A DNA stretch of 64,000 nucleotides from Carboxylicivirga linearis. Its GTDB lineage: Bacteria; Bacteroidota; Bacteroidia; Bacteroidales; Marinilabiliaceae. The stretch's first letter is position 1. Every line of letters begins with the position of its first letter. The stretch is from the NCBI RefSeq assembly GCF_018271995.1, contig NZ_JAGUCO010000027.1, positions 1-64,000 of the forward strand. Reading direction: 5' to 3'. The position numbers and the translations under genes are program-made. This document shows positions 34 through 45,141 of this stretch, piece by piece. The notes under the pieces were generated by a model that saw nothing but the letters and a program-made list of their open reading frames with translations, was not told where the DNA came from and did no database searches.

Positions 34-377
34 AAACAAAAATTTTGTGGTAAATAATTTTCATCGGCTGCAAAACTAATTTATTAGCAGAAAAACCGGA
101 TTGAATGCAATTGAAATAAAAATGAAAGGCAAAAACGGCTTGTTTGAAAAAAAATCAAAAAAATTTAATTTCTTTTTTCTCCGTTATTTTGCGTCAAAAA
201 GTATAGTAAAATGTATGATAGGCAATTTTTAAACCTCGCCTAAAAAGCTCTGTATATTACTGTTTATTAGCCTGATATAAATTATTTATTTTTCGTTCGG
301 ATATACTTTTTATACATTGTGTTTTATTTGCATGTTGAAAGCTGAGTGAATCGTTATTATGTGATCTTAAAAATGTC
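34..377. other. AT-rich spacer without a visible gene
   Basis: No open frame of useful length, tRNA or clear hairpin was seen on either strand. It lies between the end of the leftward signalling operon and the next leftward gene, so it should hold the terminator of the first and the promoter of the second, but neither is convincing by eye. Confidence 0.5.
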
Positions 378-1566: not shown

Positions 1567-4185
1567 TTATTTAGTTTGTTCATCATTCAATGTACTTATT
1601 GAATCAATGAAAGGTTCAAAACTGGATATTACTTTTGGGAGTTGTTCAAAATCGAAAGCGTTGATTGCATTGTTAAGTTTAGCTGAATAATTTTTTAAAG
1701 GTTCCCATTTAATAAAAGTAAGCAGGTTGTTTAACTGCTTGGAAAAATTCTGTAATTCATTAATAGAAATTAATTCATTTAAGCCTTTCCAAATTGGAAT
1801 TAGTGTATGTATCATCATTTTATTAATTGACTCCTTATCTTCATTTGTTAGATTTGTAGAGATTAAATAATCTTTAAATACGGCTAATTCCATATTGGGT
1901 TGAGAAGAAATATTATTAATGATAATATTACTATTGTGTAGCTCACCCGTAAAGCTGATGTTAGGTATTCTGATAATAAAATTGCTCCCTATAGATGGCT
2001 TGCTGTCAACTGTAATATTGCCACCCATTTCATTAACAAGTCGCTGAACAATAGATAGACCCAAGCCTGTTCCTTTATATTCTTTATTATTGTTTGACTC
2101 TTCTTGTATAAAAGGTTCAAATATTCTTGTTTGTCTGTCTTTATCAATCCCTATTCCTGTGTCTTTAACCTGTATAACCAAACTTCCATTTTGGCAGTTT
2201 TTATTGTTATAAAATGCATATTGAACATAAACACTTCCTTCTTCTGTAAATTTTAATGCATTATTAATTAGGTTGATAAGAATTTGTTTAATTCTAAGCG
2301 CATCAATAAGAATGGTATTAGGAATGTCTGTTTGCTTATCAATAATCAGTTGAAGGCCTTTTTCCTTCGCAAAAAGTTGAAATGTTTGTTTAATTTCCTG
2401 AATCAAAGTAGAAATATCCGTATTTTCAATTTTGAATGATAATTTACCGGAATTGATCTTTTCTAAATCAAGCAAATCATTAATTAGTTCAAGCAATAAC
2501 TTACCACTTGATTGGATGGAATGTATATAATTGCTGAAAGGTGCTTCAGTAATATGCTTACTTAATAAGTTAGTGAATCCTATAATGGCATTCATAGGAG
2601 TCCTAATCTCATGAGACATGTTAGCCAAAAACTTTGACTTAAGTTCATTGGCAATATTACTTTTATTTCTTTCAATTACGAGTTGATTGAGGAGTTCTTT
2701 AGAATCTGTAATATTTATTAAGATGCCAATTTGGTTATCGTATTCTTTGGGACTAAACTGGCCAAGGAATTTTACCCATATATATATGTTTTTAATTGTT
2801 AGTAGTCTGAATTCTACACTTATATCGCTGAGATTATCTTGTTGTAATTTACTAACCTGCTCAGTAATTAATTCAATGTCTTCGGGGTGAATTCTTGATA
2901 AAATCCAGTTCTTATCTACCTTCTTTCCATTAAAATCATAACCTGTCATATTGGTAAAGACAGAGTTACAATTAAACATTTCAGATACAAAGTTATATTC
3001 GAAGTAAGATATATTTCCGGCATTCATGGAGAATTCCAGTTTATCCATTAGTTCTTTTAACTGTTTCTCCTTTCTAACTCTTTCGCTTATGTCGATCCGA
3101 ATCTCGGCAATTTGTTTTTGACCATTCTCTGCAATAAAAGGATACGTTGTAACTTGAAAGGATGAATTAGGCAGGTTACGGGTAAAGGTTTTTACATTTA
3201 AGTTATCGTTCAATAAAGGACAATCATTGCATTGTTCTTTAAGATTACAAAAGTACTGATGGCATTTTTGATTGAGTTTAGTTATGTCTTCATTACTGTG
3301 GTAAATAATGTTTTTATTCTCATCAACAATGTTTAATGTGGTATTAGTTGATTTAAGAATTTGTTGCAATTGTTTGTAAACAGTCGAAAGCTCCTTTTCG
3401 GTTTTTTTAAGATCGGAAATGTCAATCATAAAACCAATCAATTCGATAGGAGTATTATTTTCATCTACTACAACTTTTACAACATCTCTCATCCAAATAA
3501 TAGATCCATCTTTTTTGATTACCCGATATTCAAAAATATGGTCATTTCCTGCCAAAGATTCATTATTGCAATAGTTTAGTGCATAGTCTGAGTCATCAGG
3601 ATGGATGGCTTTGGCCCACTCTTGCATATTGGGCCATTCTTCCGGTTTGTAACTGGTAATGTTTTCGACTTGGTTACCAATAAATGTAAATTCAGTAGTT
3701 TTAAAATCTAATCGCCAAGGTACACCATGCAGTGAATTTATAAGCAGATTAATGGAGTCGACGTTAAAATTTGACTTTTTTGCTTGCTTTTGAGTATATA
3801 GTTTAACTTGATCATTAATGGTCTGTTGGATTGTTTCAAGTAACCCTTTTTCCCTTGAATCTATGGTAATTTCATTTTCGTAGAATAGGGTGATACAACC
3901 TAGTTTGATTGAATTTAAAGTAATAGGACATGCTAATAAATTTGTAAAAGCAAATGCGTATTGACTGTTACTAAACTCTTTTTTATTTAGTTGAGTACAT
4001 TTATTTTTCGTTTTTAGGATTTCATAGAGTTCATCATCGCTTTTAGGAATTGGGATATTACTATTTGATTGGATAAAGATATGATCGCATTCAAACTGGA
4101 TTTTTAACTCTACCAACGAACTCTTAGTTGTCTGCTCCAGCATTTCTAATAGCTTTCTCCAGTTATTTATCAACCCCTCTAGCAT
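1567..4185 (-). CDS. Multi-PAS sensor histidine kinase
   Basis: 872 aa, no transmembrane segment seen, so probably a cytoplasmic sensor. In order: a GAF-like N-terminal region (about 1-140), PAS 1 with PAC (about 145-260), a Cys-rich PAS 2 (HQYFCNLKEQCNDCP, about 270-370), PAS 3 (about 380-500), HisKA with His525 in FLANMSHEIRTPM, and HATPase_c with an intact N-box (INNALKFT), DTGIGI and GTGLGLS. The last ~110 residues are a helical tail of the kind that in hybrid kinases follows a receiver, but no receiver lies between ATPase and tail. The missing receiver may be supplied by the next gene. The Cys cluster in PAS 2 could bind metal or sense redox; that is inference. Third gene of the operon, 21 bases after the regulator gene. 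Confidence 0.93.
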   Translation of the reverse strand: MLEGLINNWRKLLEMLEQTTKSSLVELKIQFECDHIFIQSNSNIPIPKSDDELYEILKTKNKCTQLNKKEFSNSQYAFAFTNLLACPITLNSIKLGCITLFYENEITIDSREKGLLETIQQTINDQVKLYTQKQAKKSNFNVDSINLLINSLHGVPWRLDFKTTEFTFIGNQVENITSYKPEEWPNMQEWAKAIHPDDSDYALNYCNNESLAGNDHIFEYRVIKKDGSIIWMRDVVKVVVDENNTPIELIGFMIDISDLKKTEKELSTVYKQLQQILKSTNTTLNIVDENKNIIYHSNEDITKLNQKCHQYFCNLKEQCNDCPLLNDNLNVKTFTRNLPNSSFQVTTYPFIAENGQKQIAEIRIDISERVRKEKQLKELMDKLEFSMNAGNISYFEYNFVSEMFNCNSVFTNMTGYDFNGKKVDKNWILSRIHPEDIELITEQVSKLQQDNLSDISVEFRLLTIKNIYIWVKFLGQFSPKEYDNQIGILINITDSKELLNQLVIERNKSNIANELKSKFLANMSHEIRTPMNAIIGFTNLLSKHITEAPFSNYIHSIQSSGKLLLELINDLLDLEKINSGKLSFKIENTDISTLIQEIKQTFQLFAKEKGLQLIIDKQTDIPNTILIDALRIKQILINLINNALKFTEEGSVYVQYAFYNNKNCQNGSLVIQVKDTGIGIDKDRQTRIFEPFIQEESNNNKEYKGTGLGLSIVQRLVNEMGGNITVDSKPSIGSNFIIRIPNISFTGELHNSNIIINNISSQPNMELAVFKDYLISTNLTNEDKESINKMMIHTLIPIWKGLNELISINELQNFSKQLNNLLTFIKWEPLKNYSAKLNNAINAFDFEQLPKVISSFEPFIDSISTLNDEQTK

Positions 4186-35073: not shown

Positions 35074-35784
35074 TTAGTTCATACTATTGATACGAATACT
35101 GGCTTTTACAAATGCGAGTGCGCGAATTTTAGATAGTGGAACATCTCTCTCTGCATGATGTTGGTTGTAACTAACCAGGCGTATGTGATCAATCTTTTCA
35201 CTTTTCTGGATATACTTTACTGCAATGTATTCCTCTCCATCCATGTCAACTGATATCAGGTACATCTCACCAAAGAATATATTATCAGCAATATTGTTTA
35301 TCTTTTTATATAGCACAATATCACCTGACTTTAATAATGGATACATGCTATCTCCTGTAACATGAACTGCACCATCACACTTAGGAATACCAGGTATACT
35401 AATCTGATCAATAGGATCGTAAGAACCGTTTTTAAATAGTGGCACTAAACCTGCAGATGCTTCCAGGTCGTATAAAGGTATTGTTTGGTAATCTTCCTTG
35501 TGATCACTAGCCAGGCTAAAATCATTTTGTGGTTTAGTATAGTCTTTTCTTCCGATAGATCCCTTTCCTGTAATCAACCAATCAGGATTTATCTTTTCAG
35601 AATATTCTGAATTGAATAACTTATTAAAGAAGTCGTAACTAGGTGAGCTTTTACCATTTATGATATCATAAATACTCTGAGCCCTACTGTATCCCAGTGT
35701 TTTAGCTAAATCACTGCGCGTAACTCCTAGATATTCAATTAACTTCTCCACCCTTGCAGATATTTCTGTATTTTTTTTATTCAT
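35074..35784 (-). CDS. Prophage repressor, XRE-HTH plus S24 (LexA/CI-like) domain
   Basis: 236 aa. N-terminal helix-turn-helix (about 10-65; RSDLAKTLGYSRAQSIYDII). C-terminal S24 peptidase fold with cleavage pair Ala111-Gly112 (LEASAG), catalytic Ser146 in TGDSMYP and Lys190 in AVKYI. All parts for RecA-stimulated self-cleavage are present, so the prophage should be inducible by DNA damage. It faces away from the early operon. Palindromes lie 13 bases before its start, inside its coding region, and beyond its end. Confidence 0.93.
   Translation of the reverse strand: MNKKNTEISARVEKLIEYLGVTRSDLAKTLGYSRAQSIYDIINGKSSPSYDFFNKLFNSEYSEKINPDWLITGKGSIGRKDYTKPQNDFSLASDHKEDYQTIPLYDLEASAGLVPLFKNGSYDPIDQISIPGIPKCDGAVHVTGDSMYPLLKSGDIVLYKKINNIADNIFFGEMYLISVDMDGEEYIAVKYIQKSEKIDHIRLVSYNQHHAERDVPLSKIRALAFVKASIRINSMN
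35596..35611. promoter_or_regulatory. Repressor operator palindrome inside the repressor gene
   Basis: Perfect 16-base palindrome TTCAGAATATTCTGAA, within codons for the end of the DNA-binding domain. It is exactly 200 bases from the copy upstream of the gene, which would favour looping between two bound repressors. Confidence 0.7.
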
Positions 35785-35796
35785 TTTCTTGATTAT

Positions 35797-35810
35797 GCAG
35801 AATATTCTGT
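35797..35810. promoter_or_regulatory. Repressor operator in the repressor/early divergent region
   Basis: TGCAGAATATTCTGT, with core palindrome CAGAATATTCTG at 35798-35809, sits 13 bases before the repressor start codon and 57 before the first early gene. This is the natural place for repression of both the repressor and early promoters. Confidence 0.75.
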
Positions 35811-35866
35811 TTTAATTTGTAAAAGCAATTTAGAAATAAGATTTAAAAATAACAACTTTTAAAACG

Positions 35867-36067
35867 ATGGCAGTACGACCTCAAATTAATCTAGCAGCTA
35901 AACACAAGGAAATACTCAAAGAAGAGTACTCTGTAAGTGATCAGACAATCAGGATGGTATTGATGTATGTTAATAATAGTCCGAAAGCTAAAGAGATCAG
36001 GAAAAGAGCTAAAGAATTATTAGAGCAGGAAGCTAATAATGTAGTATTAGACGAATCAGGAAAATAA
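35867..36067 (+). CDS. Small Ner/Cro-like early protein
   Basis: 66 aa, first rightward gene. Helical, with a likely helix-turn-helix (HKEILKEEYSVSDQTIRMVL) and a basic second half (KAKEIRKRAKELLEQE). In Mu the corresponding place holds ner, a negative regulator of early transcription. The family assignment is by position and predicted shape only. Confidence 0.65.
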   Translation: MAVRPQINLAAKHKEILKEEYSVSDQTIRMVLMYVNNSPKAKEIRKRAKELLEQEANNVVLDESGK

Positions 36068-36122
36068 AGGTTCTCTTTTTTTCAATTCTTCAATTAGGGA
36101 TCAGTTTAAATCAATCATATCT

Positions 36123-38162
36123 ATGCCTCAACTGTGGTTAAATAATAAAGTAGCCGTAGAAAAAAACGAACTTGTGTCTTCTTTCTATAAAGAGAGAAAC
36201 TTAGCTCAGGAGCTTTGGAGATACAAGAACAAACCTTACGGCATCAAGCGCCTTCAGAAAGGTGGCAATGGTAGAAAGTTGCTGATTGATTTTGATACCT
36301 TACCACGCGAAATACAGGAGGCCCTTGGTGATCCACGCAAAGTAGGCCATATACTAGAACGCTATTATCGCATCGATTCTGATACTGTTGAGTATTATGG
36401 CGACTACAAAAGACCTCATTCAGGTTATCTTACCACTAAAGAACAGGAGCAATACATTGTAAATGCATCGGTGATGCATGCTGTTGTTCGCCTGGAACAG
36501 GATCGCATAATCGAGCGACGAAACAAACGCGGCAGTTTGCGTGGTTTAGGTTCAACACTTTGTACCGATGTAATCACCTTTAACGAAACGTTGAAAGTTC
36601 GTCACAAGGTTACTCATAACATACCTTCAAATGACAGGCGTTTTAAAGAGTATTTAAAAGCCTTTAAAATGGAAGGTTTGTACTCCATTATTAAAGATCC
36701 AATGGGTACCGGTCGCCAGAATGCTCGTAAGGTTGATAACAGTGTTTTAGAAATCATCAAAGGTCTGTTTATCGATGGTTATAAACCAACAGCCACCGAA
36801 ATAGCACGTAATTACGAAGCTTTTTTAAGTGGATATGCAGAGGTTTACAACGAAAAAACAGGCGAATTATACAATCCTAAAGACTTTCCGAAGCTTAGCG
36901 AATCAACTGTAAAGAACTACCTGGCTCAATGGGAACACAAAATTGGTACCCATAAGAAGCGAAGCGGCAACCGTCAGACGTATATTGCCAATTATATACC
37001 GCATGGTCAGATGGATTTACCTAAAAAAGCAGGATCCATGATATCAATCGATGACCGTCAGCCTCCTTTCTGGTACGAAAAAGGAAAACGTATGTGGTTC
37101 TATATTGGTATGGACGTTGCCAGTGGTTGTATTACCACCTTTGTTTACGGCAAAAGTAAAGAAGGTATTATCGTTGATTTTTACCGTCAAATGGTACGCT
37201 TCCACGCTGAGTATAACCTTGGTTTACCCATCGAATTAGAGTGTGAGAGTTCGTTAAACAGCAGCTTTAAAAACACCATCCTGCGCGAAGGTAATATGTT
37301 TAAACATGTACGCATCGAGGCAAACAACGCACAGGGTAAAATTATAGAGCGTCGCTTTGGTGCCATTCGTTACGAAGTTGAAAAGAAAGCACCAGGGTGG
37401 ATTGCACGTCCGTTTGCTAAAAAAGAATCGAACCAAGCCGGACCAGGTGACAACATGATTATTCCTTACGACGAATTGGTAGCAGCTCGTTTATCAGAAA
37501 TTGAAGACTGGAATAACTCACCTCACCACGAGAATAACGAACTAAGCAAGTGGGAATACTTCTTACAAAACCAACATGAAGAAACCAATCACATTAACTA
37601 TAAAGCTATCCTTCCCCACATTGGTTACAGTACACAAACGTCGTGTCATAGAGGTTACATCACCTTGCAAGGGCGAAAACGTGCGATTGCCGAAAACGGT
37701 AAGATCCTTACTGGTTCCTCCCTTATTGAAAAGATGAAGGTGATTGAAGGTAAAGATGTGGAAGTACGTTGGCTCGACAGCATGAATGGCGAAGTATTAA
37801 AAGCCTATGCATACATCGACGATCGCTTTATGTGTGAAGTAATTGAAATGCCACGCTTTAACCGTGCCAAAGCGGAACAAACCAAAGCCGATAAGGCAGC
37901 AATGGAACTACAATCTCACTATGCAATGACGGTTATTGGCTATGCTCAAACCACTGCCAAACAAATTGAGAAGGTTGGGTTCAATGATCTTTCTCCTAAA
38001 CCGGAGCGCAAATTTCAAATACCTAACCTTAAGCGATACGAAGCTAACGAAGAGTTTGCAGAGGTTGAGATATTAGATGAAGTACACCCCGACGATAACG
38101 AAATATTGTATAACCAAAATTCAGACGCCCCCTCTAGCTGGCGCGATAATTTTCTAAAATAA
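36123..38162 (+). CDS. MuA-like DDE transposase
   Basis: 679 aa, near MuA length (663). N-terminal winged-helix DNA-binding region (about 1-100), helical end-binding region, catalytic core about 300-480 and a C-terminal beta-barrel (about 500-560). Likely catalytic acids: Asp310 in SIDDRQPPF, a Glu (373 or 375) in LECESSLNSSF where Asp is usual, and Glu409 in QGKIIERRFG; 373 to 409 has the D35E spacing. It cuts and joins prophage ends during lysogenic insertion and replicative transposition. Next gene, 5 bases on, is its ATPase partner. Confidence 0.93.
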   Translation: MPQLWLNNKVAVEKNELVSSFYKERNLAQELWRYKNKPYGIKRLQKGGNGRKLLIDFDTLPREIQEALGDPRKVGHILERYYRIDSDTVEYYGDYKRPHSGYLTTKEQEQYIVNASVMHAVVRLEQDRIIERRNKRGSLRGLGSTLCTDVITFNETLKVRHKVTHNIPSNDRRFKEYLKAFKMEGLYSIIKDPMGTGRQNARKVDNSVLEIIKGLFIDGYKPTATEIARNYEAFLSGYAEVYNEKTGELYNPKDFPKLSESTVKNYLAQWEHKIGTHKKRSGNRQTYIANYIPHGQMDLPKKAGSMISIDDRQPPFWYEKGKRMWFYIGMDVASGCITTFVYGKSKEGIIVDFYRQMVRFHAEYNLGLPIELECESSLNSSFKNTILREGNMFKHVRIEANNAQGKIIERRFGAIRYEVEKKAPGWIARPFAKKESNQAGPGDNMIIPYDELVAARLSEIEDWNNSPHHENNELSKWEYFLQNQHEETNHINYKAILPHIGYSTQTSCHRGYITLQGRKRAIAENGKILTGSSLIEKMKVIEGKDVEVRWLDSMNGEVLKAYAYIDDRFMCEVIEMPRFNRAKAEQTKADKAAMELQSHYAMTVIGYAQTTAKQIEKVGFNDLSPKPERKFQIPNLKRYEANEEFAEVEILDEVHPDDNEILYNQNSDAPSSWRDNFLK

Positions 38163-38167
38163 GAATC

Positions 38168-39046
38168 ATGAATTTATCTCAGGAGTTTAAACAGAACGTA
38201 CGTGCAGCTATACTGCATCACCGACAAAACTTTGGCGGTACGGATACCGACTATGCACGAACCCTTGGTATCAAACCATCTATTTACAGCCGATTGAAAA
38301 AAGGTGAAACAGAAGGGTTATTATCGAATACCATTTGGATCACGATTGGACGTGAGTTAGATGTTCGCATGCATCAAAGTACCTGGAAGGTGGCACGAAC
38401 TAAAGTCTATAACGAAATTGAAGAGAGTCTTCACTTTTGTAAAGAGTATAGTAAATCTATGATATTGGCTGATGACTGCGGTATTGGTAAAACCTTTTGC
38501 ACACGCCATATTATCCGCTCTATGAAAAACACCTTTTATGTCGATTGCTCTCAGGGTAAAACCAAACAGCAGTTTATACGCCTGTTGGCTAAAACGGTAG
38601 GTGTAGATAATAAAGGCCGTTATGTGGATGTGAAAGCCAACCTGAAGTACTACATCAACCTGTTAGATAAACCACTTATTGTGTTGGATGAAGCAGGCGA
38701 TTTGGATTACAACGCCTTTTTAGAATTAAAGGAGTTGTGGAATGGTACCGATGGTGGATGTGCCTGGTACATGATCGGTGCAGATGGCCTACGCGCCAAA
38801 ATGCAGCGAGGTATCAGAAATAACAAAGTAGGCTATGCCGAAATATTCAGTCGTTTTTCTGATGAGTTTATTACCCTGGTACCAACCGGATCGATGGATA
38901 AAAAGCAGTTCTATGCCGATTTAATTGGTGCAGTAGCCACCGCTAACCTAACCGAAAAAAGCAAGGTGAATGTATTGGTCAACCAGTGCATTAAGAAAGA
39001 AGCCACCTTACGTCATTTAGAAACCCTTATTAAAATTGGAGCTTAA
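38168..39046 (+). CDS. MuB-like AAA+ ATPase
   Basis: 292 aa. N-terminal helix-turn-helix (about 25-65; ARTLGIKPSIYSRLKKGE), Walker A DDCGIGKT (102-109), Walker B PLIVLDEAGD (169-178). MuB binds target DNA, delivers it to the transposase and gives target immunity. Directly after the transposase gene, as in Mu. Confidence 0.92.
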   Translation: MNLSQEFKQNVRAAILHHRQNFGGTDTDYARTLGIKPSIYSRLKKGETEGLLSNTIWITIGRELDVRMHQSTWKVARTKVYNEIEESLHFCKEYSKSMILADDCGIGKTFCTRHIIRSMKNTFYVDCSQGKTKQQFIRLLAKTVGVDNKGRYVDVKANLKYYINLLDKPLIVLDEAGDLDYNAFLELKELWNGTDGGCAWYMIGADGLRAKMQRGIRNNKVGYAEIFSRFSDEFITLVPTGSMDKKQFYADLIGAVATANLTEKSKVNVLVNQCIKKEATLRHLETLIKIGA

Positions 39047-39048
39047 CA

Positions 39049-39690
39049 ATGGCCAGACCCAAAGCAGTATACGCTAAAAATTTATATGAGCTAAAAGACA
39101 AGATTAAAAGATTTGCTTTTTCAGGCGTGTTCGAGATTGTAATGGGACAGCCAACCACCACAGGAATGTGGATCATCTATGGTAATGAAAAGAATGGTAA
39201 AACATGGTTTGCACTTAAAATTGCCGATTACCTAAGTCAGTTAGCAAACGTGCTATATGTAAGTGCAGAGGAAGGAATTGACGGTGAATTTATTGAAGCT
39301 TGCGAACGCGCAAAGATACCTTTCAACAATCGATCGTTGAAGTTTTACGAGTACACCGAAATAGAAGTACTCGACGAAATGTTGAGCAAAAAGAGAGCTC
39401 CTAAAATAGTGTTTATAGATAACGTCACCATCTATGCTGATGAGTTGAAAAATGGTGTCTTACGACAGTTTACTCAAAAACATGCTGATAAACTGTTTGT
39501 GTTCCTGGCTCACGAAGAGCGAAAAGAACCACATGGAGCCACCGCTAAACTCATTAAAAAGCTATCGAAAGTGATTGTACGAGTACAAGGTTTAGCCTGT
39601 TTTGTTAGTGGCCGTTGTCCGGGTGGAGTACTTACCATCGATGAAGAAAAAGCCCAGTTATTTCATGGAGTAGAAACAACAAGTAATTAA
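39049..39690 (+). CDS. Second P-loop ATPase, RecA/RepA-like
   Basis: 213 aa. Walker A GNEKNGKT (45-52), an acidic VSAEEG strand, Walker B KIVFIDN (119-125), and LAHEER as possible sensor. The layout matches the AAA_24/RepA-like single-domain ATPases found in phage replication or recombination. It is not part of the Mu core set. It starts 2 bases after the MuB-like gene, so probably works on DNA in the same early programme. Confidence 0.75.
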   Translation: MARPKAVYAKNLYELKDKIKRFAFSGVFEIVMGQPTTTGMWIIYGNEKNGKTWFALKIADYLSQLANVLYVSAEEGIDGEFIEACERAKIPFNNRSLKFYEYTEIEVLDEMLSKKRAPKIVFIDNVTIYADELKNGVLRQFTQKHADKLFVFLAHEERKEPHGATAKLIKKLSKVIVRVQGLACFVSGRCPGGVLTIDEEKAQLFHGVETTSN

Positions 39691-39692
39691 AT

Positions 39693-39941
39693 ATGAATTT
39701 TCAGAAAGTAAAAACCCGTAAAGAATCATTGTTATTCCCAATCATTTGGATGGATGCAAAGTCGAACCCTCAACACTTCTTTGATGAAAATAAGAAGATA
39801 GTAAGCTTCGATAAGTTAGAGAAAGTTAAAGCATTCCTTAGAAAGGAGCGCCCTCTGTTATGCCGCATCGGATTAAAGAAATTTCCGAAAGTAGGTTATG
39901 TAAAAAGTGTTAGTAAAACCGATTATAACATACTAGAATGA
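39693..39941 (+). CDS. Unknown early protein
   Basis: 82 aa, basic, no signal or membrane segment. Not recognised. It starts 2 bases after the ATPase gene and its stop overlaps the next start (ATGA), so it is translated with its neighbours. Confidence 0.7.
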   Translation: MNFQKVKTRKESLLFPIIWMDAKSNPQHFFDENKKIVSFDKLEKVKAFLRKERPLLCRIGLKKFPKVGYVKSVSKTDYNILE

Positions 39942-40387
39942 CAGTAGCAAAAAACGTACACGCCCAGTTTTACAACTTATTAAATAAGATGGGCATTCCA
40001 CAAAGCGACCGTCGTGATTTTCTAATGGATTATACCAATGGTTTAACCGATAGTCTTAGCGAGTTATACAGCAAAGATCCTTTGATGTATTTCAAGATGA
40101 TTAACGACATGGCAGAAACGGTTAAGAAAAGAACCACTGATGTTGATAAATGGCGAAAGCGTGTGATGGCCAGTGTGGGAGGTTACTTAAAACTAATGGG
40201 CCGCGAAAGCAATGCCAATCTGATTAAAAAAATTGCATGCCGTGCAACCGGTTACGATAATTTTAATGCGATACCTCCATCAAGGTTAATGAATGTTTAT
40301 AACACCTTTTTGAATAAGCAACAAGACTTTAAACAGTTAACCAAGGAAATGCAATACGAACTTGCATCTAAAACTCTGTTAAACTAA
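39938..40387 (+). CDS. Unknown helical early protein, possibly GemA-like
   Basis: 149 aa, helical. The C-terminal part (KKIACRATGYDNFNAIPPSR then LMNVYNTFLNKQ) resembles the regulatory GemA/gp16 region of Mu-like phages by eye and position, but the match is weak. Start overlaps the previous stop. Confidence 0.65.
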   Translation: MTVAKNVHAQFYNLLNKMGIPQSDRRDFLMDYTNGLTDSLSELYSKDPLMYFKMINDMAETVKKRTTDVDKWRKRVMASVGGYLKLMGRESNANLIKKIACRATGYDNFNAIPPSRLMNVYNTFLNKQQDFKQLTKEMQYELASKTLLN

Positions 40388-44284: not shown

Positions 44285-45130
44285 ATGTGGATAATTCCAG
44301 ACAAACTATTATATCAATTGCTACCGGAACAGGAGGCTTGGAACGAGGACTTGAATTGGCAGGATGCAACATTAGAGTTGCCGCTTATGTGGAGGTCGAA
44401 GCATTCATTATTGCCAACCTGGTATCAGCGATGGAAACGAATAAAATGGATGCAGCTCCTGTTTGGGTGGATGTTAAAACCTTCCCTTCAGAAAACTTTC
44501 GTGGAAAGATACACGGCATCACTGCCGGATATCCATGTCAACCTTTCTCACATGCAGGTAAACGAAAAGGAACAACAGACAAAAGACACATTTTTCCGCA
44601 TATACTCAGAGTTATCAAAACAGTTGAACCTATTTGGTGTTTCTTCGAAAATGTATCAGGACATTTATCAATGGGATATGCAGAGGTTTACAGAAGCCTT
44701 CGACATTTGGGTTACAATGTTGAATCAGGAATATTCTCAGCGGAAGAGGTTGGTGCACCACACTCAAGAAAGAGATTGTATATACTCGCAATTAAAATGG
44801 AGTACGCCAATGCTTCCACGATCAAGAGAGTCATATTCACAAATGAAACGAAACAGTCCAACTTTAGAAACACAAGTAAAATGGCCAACGCCTGTAGCAA
44901 GCGAAAGCGAGAAAGCATGCAAGGGTCAAAGTCAGGAGTGTTTAACACAACTTGCTATAAATGGCCAGTTGGAAGAGGGAAGTCACAATATGCGTGGGAA
45001 GCATCCAGGACGATTGAATCCGGCTTGGGTTGCACAGCTAATGGGTATGACTTTAGAATCGATCTTTTACGTGCCCTTGGCAACGGAGTTGTACCTCAAA
45101 CAGCAGCCAAAGCTTTCAAAAGCTTGTTAG
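44285..45130 (+). CDS. Long ORF overlapping the methyltransferase in another frame
   Basis: 281 codons open from an ATG that shares bases with the GTG of the methyltransferase and spanning nearly all of it. It is basic and Trp/Gln-rich and carries W-[ST]-T-P at 172 and W-P-T-P at 200, then LNPAWVAQLMGM from 244. From memory, WPTP repeats and LNPxWVxxLMG occur in phage proteins annotated as or beside cytosine methyltransferases. Such length without a stop in an AT-rich genome, with motif-like content, suggests real dual coding. It may instead be a by-product of the constrained first frame. Function unknown. Confidence 0.45.
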   Translation: MWIIPDKLLYQLLPEQEAWNEDLNWQDATLELPLMWRSKHSLLPTWYQRWKRIKWMQLLFGWMLKPSLQKTFVERYTASLPDIHVNLSHMQVNEKEQQTKDTFFRIYSELSKQLNLFGVSSKMYQDIYQWDMQRFTEAFDIWVTMLNQEYSQRKRLVHHTQERDCIYSQLKWSTPMLPRSRESYSQMKRNSPTLETQVKWPTPVASESEKACKGQSQECLTQLAINGQLEEGSHNMRGKHPGRLNPAWVAQLMGMTLESIFYVPLATELYLKQQPKLSKAC

Positions 45131-45141
45131 GTAAATTTTGA
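44287..45141 (+). CDS. C5-cytosine DNA methyltransferase
   Basis: 284 aa from GTG 44287; no in-frame ATG lies before motif I, and an upstream stop at 44272 rules out a longer form. Motif I ATGTGGLERG (about 12-21), motif IV PCQPFS with catalytic Cys84, motif VI FFENVSG, motif VIII HSRKRLYILA, a target-recognition region (about 170-240), and motif X LRALGNGVVPQTAAKAF (about 262-278). It should methylate phage DNA against host restriction. All motifs are in one frame, so the gene is not frameshifted. Last gene of the main early operon. Confidence 0.9.
   Translation: MDNSRQTIISIATGTGGLERGLELAGCNIRVAAYVEVEAFIIANLVSAMETNKMDAAPVWVDVKTFPSENFRGKIHGITAGYPCQPFSHAGKRKGTTDKRHIFPHILRVIKTVEPIWCFFENVSGHLSMGYAEVYRSLRHLGYNVESGIFSAEEVGAPHSRKRLYILAIKMEYANASTIKRVIFTNETKQSNFRNTSKMANACSKRKRESMQGSKSGVFNTTCYKWPVGRGKSQYAWEASRTIESGLGCTANGYDFRIDLLRALGNGVVPQTAAKAFKSLLGKF

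Follow-up and report, generated by a model that had tools for sequence, protein, structure and literature searches.

The gene for a short C5 cytosine methyltransferase in Carboxylicivirga linearis raises the question of why its coding sequence is open in two frames at once, and of what the second frame encodes. We analysed a stretch of 64,000 nucleotides (contig NZ_JAGUCO010000027.1, positions 1 to 64,000; hereafter the window), in which the gene is part of an apparent Mu-like prophage, as judged by eye from the neighbouring open reading frames (ORFs). Protein-level selection acts on both frames, here called A and B, and a motif IX-like segment and motif X are distributed between them. By analogy with M.EcoHK31I, the two frames very probably encode the subunits of a split C5 methyltransferase, and we infer that these act jointly. 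The features of the locus and their evidence are:

44287..45141, + strand: frame A, short C5 cytosine methyltransferase, proposed catalytic subunit (PF00145, phrog_363, constraint given frame B)
44285..45130, + strand: frame B, phrog_1008 family, proposed motif IX and target-recognition subunit (phrog_1008, permutation, conservation)
44285..44289, + strand: ATGTG, in which ATG starts frame B (MWIIP) and GTG starts frame A (VDN) (65 of 129 distinct loci)
44527..44550, + strand: motif IV of frame A, GYPCQPFS, with the predicted catalytic Cys (translation; four-fold identity 0.33 over A codons 81-100)
44752..44775, + strand: motif VIII of frame A, GAPHSRKR (translation)
44798..44809, + strand: WSTP of frame B, first WPTP-type unit (translation)
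44882..44893, + strand: WPTP of frame B, second unit, where frame A reads MANAC (translation)
45014..45046, + strand: LNPAWVAQLMG of frame B (residues 244-254), motif IX-like segment (conservation, comparison with host motif IX LTPRECARLMGYP)
45070..45099, + strand: motif X of frame A, RALGNGVVPQ, without constraint on frame B (translation; A 3.41 versus 0.18 in the null, B 0.02 versus 0.02)

Frame A encodes 284 amino acids and matched PF00145 (E 3.1e-33, profile positions 2-191 of 324) and phrog_363 (E 2e-46). The initial annotation had credited it with all cytosine methyltransferase motifs. This held for motifs I-VIII and X in the translated ORF, but the motif IX pattern was not found in frame A of the window, and the spacing from motif VIII to motif X was only about 98 residues. 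Frame A thereby differs from a canonical single-chain C5 methyltransferase, in which motifs I-VIII, IX and X all lie on one chain. Frame B encodes 281 amino acids without interruption in the +1 frame relative to frame A, and the two overlap over about 840 bases. Its coordinates, its length and its residues WSTP at 172, WPTP at 200 and LNPAWVAQLMGM at 244 were all as previously reported, as was the overlap of the two start codons. Codon positions 1, 2 and 3 of frame B are positions 2, 3 and 1 of frame A and, because of this register, every synonymous change at a third base of A alters a B codon at its second position.

The openness of frame B was compared with permutations of synonymous codons in frame A. 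In the window, the permuted genes had on average 9.3 stops in frame B (standard deviation 1.8), against the single one observed, which is B's own terminator. The longest open run was 280 codons versus a mean of 89, and none of 1,000 permutations equalled it. To avoid circularity, viral relatives were retrieved with a frame A alignment as the query, and the best 80 of at least 595 loci were retained. Frame B was open over at least 70% of frame A in 79 of these 80 loci, the lone exception being L155 (314 of 526 codons), and the other four frames were open to the same degree in 0, 3, 0 and 1 loci. In total, the 80 loci had 141 stops in frame B versus 523 expected from within-gene permutation. The longest run in B exceeded all 300 permutations in 56 loci, and was rare at P<0.05 in 74. 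Frame B occupied the identical relative frame (+1) in 165 of 165 loci, although 83 of them had entered through frame B, which makes that half partly circular, and some contigs were counted twice. A search with P0001 as the only query retrieved one locus among viral contigs and none among genome contigs. This closest viral relative, L001 (IMG/VR), had an identity in frame A of 50% in the best segment and 54% in the alignment, and a coextensive frame B of 284 amino acids with the same ATG and MWIIP.

Selection on frame B was assessed by aligning frame A by codons, permuting its synonymous codons, and scoring how similar the window is to 76 relatives in the B frame (77 of 81 genes; short, N-containing and identical ones were left out). 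Similarity in frame B exceeded the null with a mean z of 6.2 and a minimum of 2.8, and z was above 3 in 75 of the 76 pairs, which are not independent. The excess was greatest over A codons 1-80 (1.0 to 2.2 versus -0.4 to 0.7 in the null), 141-160 and 241-260 (LNPAWVAQLMG; 1.98 versus -0.16); no excess was seen over codons 161-180, codons 221-240 or motif X. With frame B held fixed, frame A was conserved as well (mean z 16.4, minimum 12.4, 76 pairs). Third-base identity at four-fold sites of frame A was 0.51 versus 0.28 expected. It reached 0.93, the highest value in the gene, over A codons 241-260, where frame B reads LNPxWV. The internal controls, motifs IV and X, gave 0.33.

As a host control, we used C5 methyltransferases from the same bacterial family, of which 15 of 30 fetched loci were located by motif search. 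Their +1 frame contained 378 stops versus 359 expected, with long runs in none of the 15 loci. The B-frame z averaged 0.11 and exceeded 3 in two of 105 pairs, none of them among the 92 pairs below 60% identity, and four-fold identity was 0.327 versus 0.314. The earlier proposal of a dual-coding gene, in which frame B encodes a further phage protein, possibly a modification partner, is thus supported on both counts: homologues keep frame B open, and synonymous change in frame A is reduced.

Residues 73-213 of frame B matched phrog_1008, named 'DNA methyltransferase' (E 7.5e-18, profile 35-175 of 329), which bears out the suggested link of WPTP and LNPxWV motifs to phage methyltransferases. The last ~30 residues of frame A matched this profile too, at its end (290-319, E 2.4e-4). 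Other members matched it over longer ranges, namely the nested ORF of Paenibacillus phage Sitara ('g59 internal gene'; E 1.6e-74, profile 29-283 of 329) and ArV1 067b (E 2.1e-74, profile 59-329), as did the C-terminal part of the single-chain Tweety methyltransferase (E 3.9e-51). Since phrog_1008 matches both nested ORFs and the C-termini of one-chain enzymes, one family occurs in both forms. Its name hides that the part matched by frame B of the window (35-175) is the +1 reading of another methyltransferase's catalytic region. On frame B, Pfam gave three families, all below their cut-offs (E 0.03-0.09), and NCBIfam gave none. Cyclin E, the sole match of the B profile among PDB sequences (best E 0.62), was rejected as chance. 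WPTP-type units numbered two in frame B of the window, and many were present in L002, L038 and L052; this spread looks as if recognition units had been duplicated.

We then classified relatives by the frames in which motifs IX and X lie. The census comprised 320 loci from four sets chosen on frame A (the best 80 per scan), or 313 after removal of seven duplicates, and the sample was without large phage methyltransferase groups such as those of Klebsiella and Streptococcus phages. In 193 of the 313 loci, motif IX lay in frame B and motif X in frame A (nested). In 18 both lay in frame B (staggered), as in Firecracker gp6/gp5, ArV1 067a/067b, L029 and L041. In 57 both lay in frame A (single chain), and 55 of these came from the set seeded with actinophages; the remaining pair, L117 and L155, may reflect chance hits of the pattern. 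The IX-like segment was therefore in frame B rather than in the catalytic chain in 211 loci (193 + 18), and chance hits in the third frame amounted to 1 of 313 with both the strict and the relaxed motif IX pattern. In staggered and single-frame relatives the IX-like segment is continuous with motif X. The single-chain enzymes of Mycobacterium phages Tweety (gp72, L206) and Ramsey (gp69, L207) keep a remnant of frame B, YSETLPTSGMTRSG, upstream of the join to their B-type C-terminus.

M.EcoHK31I is encoded by two ORFs in different frames, the small one within the large one and covering only part of it, and both polypeptides are reported to be needed in vitro. The window resembles this system in frame use, as frame B is the alternate (+1) frame of A, but differs in that B spans nearly the whole gene, and in its shared ATGTG, its WPTP units and its location in a prophage. 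The motifs are also divided alike: PMC3404938 assigns motifs I-VIII, X and a predicted target-recognition domain of M.EcoHK31I (YGGCCR) to the large polypeptide and no motif other than IX to the small one, a likeness of pattern and position, and PMC3439449 calls the enzyme naturally split. M.AquI (CYCGRG) is described in PMC3404938 as split between motifs I-VIII and IX-X. The staggered loci L029, L041, Firecracker and ArV1 divide their motifs in the same way, while in the window motif X remains on catalytic chain A. PMC11855218 reports for ShiLan a homing HNH endonuclease inserted in actinophage methylases, with a disjoint distribution. This too is an out-of-frame ORF within a phage methylase gene, but frame B of the window overlaps the methyltransferase coding sequence itself. 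Our search of open-licence papers found none on this overlap in phages. Relative to M.EcoHK31I, what is new is that the overlap is nearly complete, that both frames start in one ATGTG, and that the arrangement spans a broad range of phages.

We propose that frame A, with motifs I-VIII, motif X and the Pro-Cys motif, would be the catalytic subunit. Frame B, started from the ATG that overlaps the GTG of A, would provide the small-domain part, i.e. WPTP-type units followed by motif IX (LNPxWVExLMG), and it most likely supplies the motif IX that is missing from A. The two chains would assemble into one DNA methyltransferase, as the polypeptides of M.EcoHK31I do, in which B would set or complete DNA recognition. 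The ATGTG start could couple the synthesis of both chains, and the resulting enzyme would protect or mark phage DNA.

Several results weigh against this assignment. In a profile-profile comparison, residues 242-263 of frame B fell exactly on host motif IX, but with a non-significant probability of 0.1% (E 0.45); hhalign with a two-sequence alignment (L029 and L041) reached 2% (E 0.024). The HMMER match of the IX-X stretch on M.HhaI 272-307 scored -2.1 bits alone; a single-frame relative was also superposed on M.HhaI, which gave ranges only. The window, like L001, is without the usual P-x-GWT after LMG. The AlphaFold model of frame B was poor (pLDDT, the predicted local distance difference test, 62; pTM, the predicted template modelling score, 0.26; 106 sequences), and a Foldseek search with it against PDB gave no credible match, the single one having an E of 9.8. 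No function is assigned to most of frame B ahead of the WPTP units. Moreover, the target-recognition domain of M.EcoHK31I is predicted on the large chain (PMC3404938), so that recognition may not be the task of B.

The census and the distribution of frame B add to these points. Forty-five of the 313 loci fell outside the three main classes. The first motif IX pattern was too strict, placing 34 of 80 window-like loci in the class 'IX in neither, X in A'; it was relaxed after inspection of examples, and the census was rerun. Frame B is not full-length everywhere: it has stops across early A in C72C1 (L003), Lily, Rhynn and R23.9, and its open stretch starts just before motif IV in C72C1, Lily and R23.9. 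Its median length upstream of motif VIII was 173, 156, 107.5 and 67 codons in the four census sets. Furthermore, frame B of the window alone (tblastn) matched only 4 of 50,697 phage records. In other searches, the B protein of ABMM1 matched 116 of the 50,697 phage records and 4 of 72,556 plasmid records. Near matches to the Salmonella-phage gene occurred in 4 of 5,426 Escherichia coli genomes, and among 71 genomes from the host's family phrog_1008 occurred in one, the window's own.

The best surviving alternative is that frame B encodes a real overlapping phage protein with another role, such as an anti-restriction factor, a regulator or a methyltransferase chaperone, which we consider unlikely. 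It would agree with the strong constraint on the N-terminal stretch (A codons 1-80), for which no methyltransferase counterpart was found, and with the lack of a fold match. However, the peak of four-fold conservation in the gene coincides with the IX-like segment, which runs on into motif X in staggered and single-frame relatives and is carried by frame B in two-thirds of the census. It is less probable still that B is no separate protein and that the ribosome moves into frame B once past motif VIII and returns to frame A ahead of motif X, yielding one fusion protein. A single +1 shift in L029, L041 or Firecracker would indeed give a complete methyltransferase, and single-frame fusions exist, but the window would need two opposite shifts. 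In addition, constraint from the first codons of B together with a conserved ATG is unexpected for a mid-gene shift, and the former led us to reject frameshift-only expression as the main explanation. That frame B is open by chance or codon bias and untranslated is scarcely credible: although stops are scarce in several frames of GC-rich homologues (one reverse frame of L131 is stop-free) and the longest run was not rare (P>=0.05) in 6 of the 80 loci, both are rejected on the permutation test and the clean host controls, and are opposed by the openness of the other loci, by the conservation of each frame given the other, and by the annotation of the nested ORF in at least three phage records.

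These records are of Paenibacillus phages Lily (L170, 1622-2113), Sitara (L212, 1042-1746) and Jacopo (L210, 1201-1905), where the deposited nested +1 ORF is named either 'internal gene' or a further 'DNA cytosine methyltransferase'. In Synechococcus phages Yong-M2-251 and Ssp-JY39 (L004 and L007, both 2001-3116), coordinates and A and B scores are equal, and one record annotates A ('cytosine-specific DNA methyltransferase') and the other B ('hypothetical protein'). The records that we examined mostly annotate phage cytosine methyltransferases of this kind as single proteins. If the two-subunit assignment is correct, a portion of the enzyme has escaped notice, and assays of activity or specificity with frame A alone may fail.

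A phylogeny of the catalytic half (158 columns) included 268 phage genes, namely 193 nested loci (with the window), 18 staggered and 57 single-chain, as well as six host enzymes; it omitted the 45 loci outside these classes, and a length or stop filter removed one nested locus. Architecture changed 12 times on this tree, versus at least 64 times with shuffled labels. Parsimony made the root of the ingroup nested, which hints that the nested form is ancestral; the tree is a hint and not proof, because support at several deep nodes is weak (0.58-0.86) and because the host enzymes consist of one chain. A wider possibility, which we regard as slightly less than even, is that the split, dual-coded form is basic to short phage C5 methyltransferases. 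A catalytic chain would then be paired with an AUGUG-started +1 specificity chain whose variable number of WPTP units would act as exchangeable target-recognition modules, and the actinophage single chains would derive from it through indels that joined the frames. The overlap stands out for its length and conservation, and its nested, staggered and fused relatives offer a natural series for the origin and resolution of overlapping genes. In L026, L052 and L064, several stops interrupt frame A between motifs VIII and X. Frame B is open there, with many WPTP-type units, and a motif X-like segment is still kept in frame A.

The ATGTG start, with ATG for frame B (MW[IVLM]) and GTG for frame A, was present in 65 of 129 distinct window-like loci, which include the window and of which many were picked through frame B. 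In 36 of the 65, frame A had no other upstream ATG, GTG or TTG; likewise, the open run of frame A in the window contained none upstream of its GTG. A short Shine-Dalgarno-like string, often of only four bases, preceded 37 of the 65 starts, and none was found at the start in the window; such sequences are often missing in Bacteroidota. The overlapping AUGUG is a possible device for setting the ratio of the subunits.

A scan for promoters and terminators gave 5 and 1 sites, respectively, versus 3.3 and 1.0 in shuffled sequences. The methyltransferase gene is situated downstream of a region at 35074-40000 of the window that, read by eye, resembles a Mu-like early region, with repressor-like, transposase-like (679 amino acids) and AAA ATPase-like proteins.
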